A DNA stretch of 26,453 nt from a virus: positions 1-26,453 of the IMG/VR virus record IMGVR_UViG_3300046002_001336. One strand, given 5' to 3'. A program made the translations under genes and the position numbers. Below are positions 19,762-26,290 of the stretch, one piece after another. The stretch's first letter is position 1; every line of letters starts with the position of its first letter. The notes below the pieces were generated by a model. That model saw only the letters and a list, made by a program, of their open reading frames with translations, had not been told where the DNA came from and did no database searches.

Positions 19762-20007
19762 ATGTGGTTAGATATCGCTCGCAGAACCCTAGCGGTCATA
19801 ATTCTAAAAGTAACCGGCATCTTTGTCGGTGGAGCTGTTATCGGCCTTGAGGTTATTCAGGCTGTTGCGATGGCTGCCTTTGCCGGAATTATTGATGTAG
19901 CTCAAGAGCTATCGAGGGCATACCTAGCAGATGGAAAGATTGACCCGGATGAGCTCAACAAGAGCTTCGGGAAGATTGCGGATAAAACCCCTAACTCAAA
20001 AGGCTAG
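19762..20007 (+). CDS. Small membrane protein, holin candidate
   Basis: An 81-residue protein with a long hydrophobic region (residues 8-47: TLAVIILKVTGIFVGGAVIG, then LEVIQAVAMAAFAGIIDVAQ), probably two membrane helices, followed by an acidic/polar tail with DGKIDPDELNKSFGKI (57-72). Its position beside the endolysin suggests a holin or a lysis regulator. The tail loosely resembles an EF-hand loop, but no binding can be claimed. Its stop TAG overlaps the stop of the convergent whiB gene (CTAG at 20004-20007). Confidence 0.65.
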   Translation: MWLDIARRTLAVIILKVTGIFVGGAVIGLEVIQAVAMAAFAGIIDVAQELSRAYLADGKIDPDELNKSFGKIADKTPNSKG

Positions 20008-20273
20008 TCTTTATATTTTTGCCTTTCAAAGTAAGTAGTGCCTCCCCAGATACCCTGCATATTAGCGGCTCTAGCGTAATCTTCGCACAACCTTCTGATA
20101 GGGCAATCTGCGCAAACAGCCTTGGCTATCTTTACTGTTGCTCGATACTCGGCTGAGCCGGTATCCCCTTCGGGAAAGAAAACATCCGGGAGCTGGGAGC
20201 ACTCGACCCCATCATTTTCCCTTATAGCTTCCTGTAATTCGATATATTTCCGTTCAATCTGGCGTAATGTCAT
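20004..20273 (-). CDS. whiB-like: WhiB-family iron-sulfur transcriptional regulator
   Basis: An 89-residue protein with the WhiB cluster ligands Cys25, Cys54, Cys57 and Cys63 (AKAVCADCPIRRLC) and the GIWGG turn (74-78), followed by a basic end (ERQKYK) for DNA contact. WhiB proteins hold a [4Fe-4S] cluster and act on the principal sigma factor; they are restricted to actinobacteria and their phages, making this the strongest host clue. It is the only minus-strand gene identified. The ATG appears leaderless: on the minus strand TAGGGT lies at -12 to -7. The gene converges with the upstream membrane gene and diverges from the recombination operon, so it may regulate either lysis or early genes. 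Confidence 0.92.
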   Translation of the reverse strand: MTLRQIERKYIELQEAIRENDGVECSQLPDVFFPEGDTGSAEYRATVKIAKAVCADCPIRRLCEDYARAANMQGIWGGTTYFERQKYKD

Positions 20274-22475: not shown

Positions 22476-22809
22476 AAAAGAGTTTGATAAATACCTACAG
22501 CGTGACTTAGGTTGCTGGCATTGCGGCTCACAAGGCGATGACCTAATTCCTCACCACCGACTGAATCGAGGTATGGGAAGTAAGAATCAAGTTGCTAATC
22601 AACCGAGCAACATAATCGCCTTATGCTCCGAGGCGAACGGATTACTAGAGTCAAATGCCGATTTTGCCGAGCTAGGCCGAAAGCTAGGGTGGAAGCTAGG
22701 TAGCTATGAGAGCCCGACTGAGGTGCCTATCTTCGGGCATGGGGGCTGGTGGCTGCTAAATAATGATTTTACGAAAGACCTGCTTGAATCCGGGCCGGGG
22801 ATGAATTAG
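22468..22809 (+). CDS. HNH endonuclease-like protein
   Basis: A 113-residue protein with CWHCG (16-20), LIPHHRLNRGMG (26-37), then PSNIIALCSEANGLLES (46-62) and a helical GRKLGWKLG (70-78). The CxxC, HHR and later N/C residues match small HNH-like nucleases in actinophages. Whether both metal ligands are complete is uncertain, since the second CxxC-like pair is reduced to one Cys (CSEAN). The gene overlaps its upstream neighbour by eight bases. It lies far from the terminase, so a recombination or nicking role is more likely than packaging. Confidence 0.7.
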   Translation: MTKKEFDKYLQRDLGCWHCGSQGDDLIPHHRLNRGMGSKNQVANQPSNIIALCSEANGLLESNADFAELGRKLGWKLGSYESPTEVPIFGHGGWWLLNNDFTKDLLESGPGMN

Positions 22810-22813
22810 GTGC

Positions 22814-22936
22814 TAGGGTAAAAAAATAACTAAATAAAAAGCCCCCTAGATTTTCAAGGTCTAGGAGGCGAACACCAACAATCAGACTGTTGGCATCAAG
22901 ACAATCTTAGTGCCGACTTTAAAAAAAGGAAGGCAC
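22814..22936 (+). ncRNA. Structured leader with alternative hairpins before the 22940 gene
   Basis: TAGGGT (22814-22819) is a possible -10. Four hairpins can be drawn: H1 22841-22869 (10 bp, one mismatch); H2 CCAACA/TGTTGG (22875-22893); H2' TTGGCA with TGCCGA enclosing AAGA/TCTT (22890-22916); and H3 GTGCC (22910-22914) with GGCAC (22932-22936), which would cover the ribosome-binding site AAAGGAAGG. H2' excludes H2 and H3, so this may act as an RNA switch. Read on the minus strand, H1 is followed by a T run like a terminator. No gene is seen in 22810-22939. Confidence 0.4.
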
Positions 22937-22939
22937 ATT

Positions 22940-23137
22940 ATGGATAACTGGGACAATAAAACTCTCGCAGAGATTCTGCCGCACTACGCAGATAACATAT
23001 TTATGGCTGAGATGGATTACAAGGCTATGGGCCTTGATGCCGGACAATGGGCGATGCTAGTCAAGGAAGCGTTCGAGTCTAGAGTGGTCAACGCAACTGT
23101 ATTAATGGTAATGCTCGATAGAGCAAGCGTGGCATGA
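22940..23137 (+). CDS. Small hypothetical protein of the replication operon
   Basis: A 65-residue acidic, helical protein beginning MDNWDNKTLAEILPHYADNI. ATG at 22940 is chosen because AAAGGAAGG sits six bases before it; an in-frame TTG at 22910 lies within the leader structure. Contains AMGLDAGQWAMLVKEAFES, which may be a small helical bundle. It is coupled to the replication initiator gene by ATGA. I do not recognise a family; regulation of the following initiator is a possibility. Confidence 0.6.
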   Translation: MDNWDNKTLAEILPHYADNIFMAEMDYKAMGLDAGQWAMLVKEAFESRVVNATVLMVMLDRASVA

Positions 23138-23808
23138 AGGTTCAACCGGGTATTTTTAGAGGCAAGCTAGAGTTTGAAAACCAATTCACGCAGATACATA
23201 ATGCGTGGGTTCGAGATTCTAAGTTGAGCTACAAAGCTAAAGGCTTACTGACCTATTTGCTTAGTCATGAAATTGGCTACACAATTACAATCGGTCAAAT
23301 AATCCGAGAGAGTAACGATGGCAAACAAGCGGTTCGCTCGGCACTTGGGGAGCTAATCGAAGCTGGCTACCTAGAAACAAAGAGAACTACTGACCAAAGG
23401 GGATACAACGCCGGGCTTGCCTACTTCATAAAAGACCCCGGAAACCCAAAGTCCGAAAATCCAACTTTGGAAAATCCAACTTTGGATAATCGGACTGCTA
23501 TAGAAAACAACTTAATTAAGAATAAAAAGAAAGAAGATAAAGAAACAACGAATAAGTTTGAAACCTTTTGGAATCTTTACCCCCGGAAGATTGGCAAGGC
23601 CGATGCCCTAAAGGCTTGGGCTAAAGTAACTAAGACCGAAGACCCGGATGAGCTAATAAAATTAACTAAGGCCTACGCCGAGGGAAGGCTACCGGAAGCA
23701 ACTTATATTCCTTACCCGGCCTCTTGGCTTAACAAGGGACTTTATGAAAGTATTGAGATAGCAGAGGCCCAACCTTTGCCTAAGTTATTTGTGGGGAGGA
23801 TTAAATGA
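23134..23808 (+). CDS. Winged-helix replication initiator / helicase loader
   Basis: A 224-residue protein with an N-terminal winged helix (about 18-96): WVRDSKLSYKAKGLLTYLLS, IGQIIRESNDGKQAVRSALG and LIEAGYLETKR, as in phage replication initiators and replisome organisers. A repetitive polar linker (NPTLENPTLDN, about 109-119) and a Lys/Asn-rich stretch follow. The C-terminal domain starts with FWNLYPRKIGKADALKAWAK (about 144-163), common in proteins acting with DnaB-type helicases. The gene directly overlaps the helicase gene (ATGA). The linker-coding DNA contains a symmetrical repeat array and an AT-rich stretch that could be the origin. Confidence 0.82.
   Translation: MKVQPGIFRGKLEFENQFTQIHNAWVRDSKLSYKAKGLLTYLLSHEIGYTITIGQIIRESNDGKQAVRSALGELIEAGYLETKRTTDQRGYNAGLAYFIKDPGNPKSENPTLENPTLDNRTAIENNLIKNKKKEDKETTNKFETFWNLYPRKIGKADALKAWAKVTKTEDPDELIKLTKAYAEGRLPEATYIPYPASWLNKGLYESIEIAEAQPLPKLFVGRIK
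23450..23560 (+). other. Candidate replication origin inside the initiator gene
   Basis: Outer arms AGTCCGA (23450-23456) and TCGGACT (23490-23496) flank two copies of the hyphenated palindrome TCCAACTTTGGA (23460-23471 and 23475-23486, period 15). The array is symmetric about 23473. It is followed by an AT-rich stretch (about 23497-23560), the same general order as lambda's iterons inside gene O. Inference. Confidence 0.5.
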
Positions 23809-25034
23809 CACAGTTCGAGCAATCAGTAATCGGTTCGATTCTTTTAACAAACGGAAAAGCACTTGAAGAATTAACCCTGACCCCATCAGATTTTGATGAC
23901 CTACAGAATGAACGCATTTACAAAACCCTCTTAGAAATGAAATCGGCCCGGCAACCGATTGATGTGATTACAGTAGGTGCGGCACTACCGAAGCTTGCTA
24001 ACTATCTTCACGACATAATTACAGCGACCCCAACTGCCGCATCGGTTAAGTTCTACGCCGGCAAAGTAATCGAGGAAGCGACCCGGCGCAGGTTAGCTAT
24101 CGCCGGAACAATGATTCATAGCAAGGCCCAGCACGAGGATTTAGCAACAGTCTTCGATACGGCGAAAAAAGAAATTGATAACCTGATAGACCGCAATCTT
24201 GCTATCAAACCAAGTTATGTTTCAGATGAACTCTTGCCTTACATGGATGAGATAGATAAACCAAAAGACTATCCACAGAGTCCTTGGCCATTACTTAATG
24301 AAACGATTAGCGGATTTAGACCGGGTGCGCTTTACATAATCGGAGCTAGGCCCGGAGTCGGAAAAACTATTGTTGGCCTACAGATTGCGTGGGAGCTATC
24401 GAAGCAAGGCCCTGTATCTTTCCATAGCCTTGAGATGGGTAAGAGCGAACTTTATAACCGAATTATTGCGAGCGAGGCCGAAGTCCCATTGAGTGCTATC
24501 GAAAAGGGAAAGCTTCAGGAGTGGATGTGGGAAAGGATTCTAAAGGCCCGGACAGAAATTCAATCTCACAAATTAGCTATTCACGATAAGTCCGGTCAAA
24601 ACCTTTTACAGATACGAGCATCTGCGAATAGCGTGAAGGGTAATGGAAGCCTGAAGGCTATAGTTGTTGATTACCTTGGTTTAATTCAAGATACCGAAAA
24701 GGGCCGGAAGCGTTACGAAATGATTACCGACATAAGCATTGGCCTTAAGAATCTAGCTAGAGATTTAAATGTCCCGGTTATTGCGTTAGCTCAATTAAAC
24801 CGAGGTCCGGAGCAACGAAAAGATTCAGAACCGGACATGGCTGACCTAAGAGATTCAGGTGGTATCGAACAAGATGCCGATGTAGTTATCCTGCTACACC
24901 GTAAGCAAGTTGATGAGGATGAATTTGATTGGCAAAAGAGCCAGATGATTATCAAGGTCGCTAAGAATCGGCACGGGGGACTCGGAGAAGTTGCGCTTAG
25001 GTTCGAGGGCCACCTTGCGAGAGTAGTTGGCTAA
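23805..25034 (+). CDS. dnaB-like: Replicative DNA helicase, DnaB-like
   Basis: A 409-residue helicase. The N-terminal DnaB domain (1-130) opens with FEQSVIGSILLTNGKALEEL; the RecA-like core has Walker A GARPGVGKT (180-188), HSLEM (207-211), Walker B IVVDYLGLI (286-294), AQLNRGPE (329-336) and DLRDSGGIEQDADVVILL (347-364). It unwinds DNA at the replication fork, loaded by the upstream initiator. It is slightly shorter than bacterial DnaB, which is typical for phages. It starts on ATGA from the initiator gene. No phage DNA polymerase is seen here, so replication probably relies on the host enzyme or one outside the window. Confidence 0.94.
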   Translation: MTQFEQSVIGSILLTNGKALEELTLTPSDFDDLQNERIYKTLLEMKSARQPIDVITVGAALPKLANYLHDIITATPTAASVKFYAGKVIEEATRRRLAIAGTMIHSKAQHEDLATVFDTAKKEIDNLIDRNLAIKPSYVSDELLPYMDEIDKPKDYPQSPWPLLNETISGFRPGALYIIGARPGVGKTIVGLQIAWELSKQGPVSFHSLEMGKSELYNRIIASEAEVPLSAIEKGKLQEWMWERILKARTEIQSHKLAIHDKSGQNLLQIRASANSVKGNGSLKAIVVDYLGLIQDTEKGRKRYEMITDISIGLKNLARDLNVPVIALAQLNRGPEQRKDSEPDMADLRDSGGIEQDADVVILLHRKQVDEDEFDWQKSQMIIKVAKNRHGGLGEVALRFEGHLARVVG

Positions 25035-26250: not shown

Positions 26251-26290
26251 ATTTCCCGAAATTTACCGAAATTCCCCGAAATTCACCGAA
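26251..26290 (+). repeat. Four tandem 10-bp repeats (consensus ATTYMCCGAA)
   Basis: ATTTCCCGAA, ATTTACCGAA, ATTCCCCGAA and ATTCACCGAA follow each other without gaps from 26251 to 26290; the next ten bases (26291-26300) begin ATTTTAGTAT and hold the promoter. Spacing near one helical turn puts all copies on one face of DNA, as in operator or iteron arrays. Confidence 0.9.

Follow-up and report, generated by a model that had tools for sequence, protein, structure and literature searches.

A candidate replication origin in the linker-coding part of a phage initiator gene and the 15-bp-phased sites of its homologues

A symmetric repeat array followed by AT-rich DNA lies inside the replication initiator gene of an uncultured phage, and the question is whether this stretch is the origin of replication, as in the lambda O gene, or whether it is an operator, a hairpin or simply the trace of a repeat in the protein. 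The window, by which we mean the whole stretch of DNA that was analyzed, is a virus record of 26,453 bp, in which the genes form one long rightward run.

The initiator gene and its product

The initiator gene (23134..23808, plus strand) encodes 224 amino acids, and its end is overlapped by the gene of a DnaB-type replicative helicase (23805..25034, plus strand; Pfam DnaB_C, E 3.5e-75; DnaB N, E 6.2e-16). Residues 12–207 of the initiator, which span the N- and C-domains, matched the replication initiation family PHROG_270 (E 4.9e-32). Its predicted layout is a winged-helix N-domain (about residues 1–103), a disordered linker and a C-terminal domain (about 142–207). In the AlphaFold model, which was of moderate quality (pLDDT 66), the N-domain showed pLDDT values of 71–88, while residues 104–115 and 129–138 were below 50. 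The linker is probably disordered as judged from this model, and this fits a linker sequence dictated by the needs of the DNA. The array falls in the DNA coding for this linker, as proposed in the earlier note.

A fold search against the PDB gave weak matches to the N-domains of DnaD, RctB and Geobacillus DnaB (best E 0.019), which are consistent with a winged helix but are not proof of it, and a sequence search of solved structures with the initiator found nothing convincing. Pfam HTH_36 (PF13730) was matched weakly (E 0.006; 16.7 bits against a curated cut-off of 25), while this cut-off was passed by relatives of N-domain types B, D and E, described below, and by Microbacterium phage Kozie. 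RepA_N (PF06970) was not matched at E values up to 1, and the PHROG families named replication initiation O-like gave only distant matches (E 6e-6 to 0.02). By analogy, the initiator may work like lambda O, and membership of the O family is not claimed. Bacterial genome contigs yielded no relative when queried with the entire protein and, in another scan, one or two doubtful matches; the sequences of a mixed N-domain alignment differed too much for it to serve as a search query.

The phage is small and probably actinobacterial. A reading frame that is WhiB-like as judged from its sequence (20004–20273, minus strand), the sole clear minus-strand gene of the window, points to an actinobacterial host, and a WhiB gene is also close to the initiator gene in Pontimonas phage phiPsal1.

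The array, the adjoining DNA and the linker codons

The 47-bp array (23450..23496) consists of two arms of 22 nt (23450–23471 and 23475–23496), which are 82% complementary around a centre of 3 nt. Among the inverted repeats of the window it scores best, and it alone reaches a score of at least 12, a level that no inverted repeat attained in 10 first-order shuffles of the window. In synonymous codon shuffles that preserve the protein, the inverted-repeat score of the array was reached in 1 of 2000 and its 15-bp direct-repeat score in 6 of 2000.

A better description of the array is a row of four 12-bp sites with a 15-bp pitch, starting at 23445, 23460, 23475 and 23490. Exact copies of TCCAACTTTGGA, a near-perfect palindrome, were found at 23460..23471 and, 15 bp further, at 23475..23486 only, from direct reading and codon conservation. 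They are flanked by two degenerate sites seen by direct reading. The first is inverted (23445..23459, minus strand; TCGGACTTTGGG plus a 3-bp spacer), and shares 9 of 12 letters with TCCAACTTTGGA while keeping to the 15-bp register. The fourth (23490..23501, plus strand) reads TCGGACTGCTAT, and its position reads TCRGACTGCATT in most relatives of type A. The outer arms lose their complementarity in relatives, where TCGGACT is replaced by TCAGACT, TCAGCCT or TCAACCT. The two-fold symmetric array of the earlier note is thus present as the top inverted repeat of the window, but its symmetry is lost in the outer arms of the relatives. As judged from the sequences compared, what is conserved is a CC-N5/6-GG site recurring every 15 bp rather than the overall two-fold symmetry.

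An inverted repeat inside a gene could also act as an RNA (or cruciform) hairpin that controls translation or messenger stability. The linkers of the window, Kozie and phiPsal1 indeed gave RNA-fold z values of −6.3, −6.1 and −5.4, respectively. However, a 15-bp-phased palindromic array folds trivially, the outer-arm pairs are broken without compensation in the type A relatives, and the type D and E linkers, which keep their direct repeats, have no special fold at the same place (z 0.57 and 0.18). An RNA hairpin was rejected as a conserved feature on these grounds, and control by a hairpin is very improbable. Since the relatives lose the two-fold symmetry and types D and E lack the hairpin, it is unlikely that either of these is the functional feature.

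The DNA adjoining the array (23499..23558) was found in the stability scan to be the least stable 60-mer in the whole record, with 80% AT, and is a candidate DNA unwinding element. The AT-rich DNA reported earlier is therefore more pronounced than had been claimed.

To compare the codons, the window gene was aligned with four IMG/VR relatives sharing its N-domain, and synonymous differences were counted among the window, L005, L006 and L008, with L004, which is 99% identical to the window, omitted. Synonymous differences numbered 7 of 130 within the linker, as compared with 418 of 799 in the remainder of the gene, and a relative keeping the NPTL repeat with other codons, which by the earlier note would refute its reading, was not found. 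The valley of synonymous substitution extends from about 23443 to 23545, and covers the array and the AT-rich tail. The Fisher p of 2e-27 pools six non-independent pairwise comparisons of four sequences, and each single pair of the window and a relative gave p values from 4e-4 to 6e-6. In addition, two genes were found by scanning for the array: L067 has an N-domain 56% identical to that of the window, a different C-domain and three units of the same iteron at 15 bp (TCCAACTTTGGAAAA), and L073 has the same N-domain and array as the window with another C-domain. The frozen codons, together with the arrays of L067 and L073, indicate that the conservation acts on the DNA and not on the protein repeat.

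The simplest alternative is a mere NPTLE pentapeptide repeat, whose codons were kept by chance, by codon bias or by recent transfer. A protein repeat alone can yield part of the direct repeat, as seen in the 6 codon shuffles mentioned above. Conversely, the codons are frozen over about 100 bp only and diverge normally to either side, the linker is predicted to be disordered, and the same DNA site occurs in different frames, both across and within genes, as described in the next section. An explanation by the protein repeat only appears already contradicted by these comparisons, and is hardly credible.

N-domain types and phased sites in the homologues

Five kinds of N-domain occur among the relatives with a C-domain of the window type. 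CC-N5/6-GG sites with a 15-bp pitch are present in the linkers of types A, B and C (33/33 loci); type D linkers contain AGGGGTGAC four times, at 21, 22 and 23 bp (24/24 loci), and type E linkers contain AGRGGTGAC five times, at 21 bp (12/12 loci). The N-domain type matched the iteron class, either 15-bp or 21–23-bp GGGGTGACA, in 69 of 69 loci, many of which are closely related, so that they should be counted as five types and not as 69 independent events. Between types, the C-domains reach 98% identity, while N-domain identity in these pairs does not exceed 42%, apart from D and E with 59%. The Walker-A motif of the helicase lies at a roughly constant distance downstream in the relatives of all five types. 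The common C-domain and the type-matched N-domain and array indicate that the reader domain and the site array were swapped as one block. A similar exchange is described in a review for the plasmid pPR9 Rep, in which the N-domain and the origin were exchanged as a block and the new one has a pfam13730 HTH (PMC5703833). A single crossover in the linker could thus exchange the reader and its site while the presumed helicase-recruiting part stays, which offers a route to a new origin specificity.

The CAGGGGTGACA iteron was seen four times at 21, 22 and 23 bp in the initiator linkers of L029–L040, L049 and L053–L064. Because of the uneven spacing in type D, one copy falls into a different reading frame: the third of the four encodes SRGDS instead of SGVTD. 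Read from the sequence, this frame-shifted iteron is a natural demonstration of DNA overriding protein.

A set of 30 non-redundant homologous genes with less than 70% N-domain identity was surveyed, most of them chosen independently of the array. Pairs of CC-N5/6-GG at +15 bp were observed 27 times, whereas 500 codon shuffles gave 5.9 on average and 16 at most, and the spacing histogram of these homologues peaked at 15 and 30 bp. The motif had been picked by eye after inspection of part of the survey set, and therefore, the clean test is that of held-out plasmids only. For six plasmid genes retrieved once the rule had been set, some of them related pairs, the summed chain length was 24, whereas 1000 shuffles averaged 8.7 and never exceeded 15. 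On the other hand, 16 of 34 non-redundant homologues have no pair at exactly 15 bp in the linker, which means that the rule is not universal or that the motif is too strict.

Homologues with phased sites at the same position of the gene include those of TP901-1, of actinobacteriophages and of plasmids from Enterococcus and Streptomyces. In Kozie the sites are arranged as in the window (ACGTCGGATTATCCAACGTTGGGTAGCCCTACGTTGGGTAATCCGACGT), the phiPsal1 linker has four units, and the rep gene of Lactococcus phage TP901-1 has TTTTCCAGATGTGG twice, 15 bp apart. In the genes with at least two phased units, the first C of the site is at codon position 1 in 12 of 18 and at position 2 in 6 of 18. The use of two codon phases for the 15-bp unit indicates that the DNA, and not the protein, is under selection. 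The frozen linker codons and these two phases agree with the earlier expectation that the DNA rather than the protein repeat would be conserved.

From these results we lean, with some reserve, towards a portable origin code, in which one winged-helix family of phages and plasmids of Actinomycetota and Bacillota would read CC-N5/6-GG sites in its own linker at a 15-bp (five-codon) pitch. The domain and the array would move as a self-contained module, and the position and the type of the origin would be predictable from the sequence. Such a simple rule points to candidate origins in numerous annotated actinobacteriophages, Bacillota phages and plasmids with unmapped origins. No statement of the 15-bp rule or of the reading in two frames was found in the open-access literature. 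The family-wide rule may therefore be new, while in-gene origins are already known.

In two loci from Enterococcus and Clostridia plasmids with DUF6017 Reps (L145 and L149), six phased CC-N6-GG units with letters near those of the window were noted within rep, and these units are likely to be the plasmid origin.

The proposed origin and known systems

The array and the AT-rich stretch are very probably a replication origin in the stretch of the initiator gene encoding the disordered linker, and a candidate origin of this phage is thereby located to about 100 bp. By analogy with lambda and TP901-1, the winged-helix N-domain would bind, probably as dimers, to the near-palindromic CC-N5/6-GG sites phased at 15 bp, the DNA next to the array (23499–23558) would melt, and the conserved C-domain would recruit or load the DnaB helicase encoded directly downstream. 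We infer that replication starts at the array. The lambda-O-like origin suggested from the window alone is supported by the frozen linker codons, by repeats at the same place in homologues in two codon phases, and by the homology to TP901-1.

The closest known counterparts are the replisome organisers of TP901-1 (ORF13/Rep) and Tuc2009 (Rep2009), which bind repeats within their own genes and have winged-helix N-domains homologous to that of the window. TP901-1 Rep, a tblastn homologue of the window initiator (E 1e-8), is the closest one that has been studied, and the repeats within its gene are reported to be the origin (PMC8965321). The place of the repeats, the 15-bp pitch and the CC-N6-GG core are the same as in the window. 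However, the C-terminal domain of TP901-1 is DnaB_2/DnaD-like, whereas the window has another domain, and the phage DnaB helicase gene is directly next to the initiator gene in the window, unlike in TP901-1 and Tuc2009.

In lambda, the ori within gene O also consists of a near-palindromic array of initiator sites followed by AT-rich DNA (PMC5043065). The lambda iterons are 19 bp, as compared with the 12-bp sites at a 15-bp pitch in the window, and lambda O and P use the host DnaB, whereas the window phage encodes its own. In RepA_N plasmids (pSK41), as in the chimeric Rep of pPR9, the Rep boxes are in the middle of rep between the DNA-binding and C-domains (PMC5703833), which resembles the position of the array in the window; pSK41 uses a RepA_N domain, in contrast to the HTH_36-type domain of the window, which has no RepA_N match. 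The DUF6017 Reps of Enterococcus and Clostridia plasmids have an N-domain related to that of the window and six 15-bp units, e.g., CCAACATTGGAAAAT or CCGACATCGGATAAT, but they are plasmid initiators with a different C-domain.

The same sites could instead be an operator, at which the initiator binds its own gene and blocks or paces the transcription of initiator and helicase, with the origin elsewhere. They are located within the initiator-helicase operon and resemble sites that a winged-helix protein would bind as a dimer, and the putative binding could serve both jobs. Operators, however, are usually at promoters, while the array is some 320 bp into the gene, in a region with no more promoter-like matches than expected by chance. 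Moreover, no DNA in the window is less stable than the adjoining stretch, and the in-gene repeats of the homologue TP901-1 are reported to serve as an origin (PMC8965321). An operator with the origin elsewhere is thus improbable, and an origin within the initiator gene is preferred.

The cumulative GC skew showed a plateau at the position of the array, without a switch. A non-coding gap (22809–22940) is located 5' of the replication genes, and contains the inverted repeat CCCCCTAG...CTAGGAGG. A 10-bp tandem repeat in an intergenic region (26251–26290; ATTTCCCGAA ATTTACCGAA ATTCCCCGAA ATTCACCGAA, then TTTTAGTATGCT) was considered as a rival origin and rejected, as it was found in near-identical relatives only. 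The terminal TTTTAGTATGCT is similar to TTTTTTAGTATGCT upstream of the gene at 68, and the tandem repeat is perhaps an operator of a regulatory promoter.
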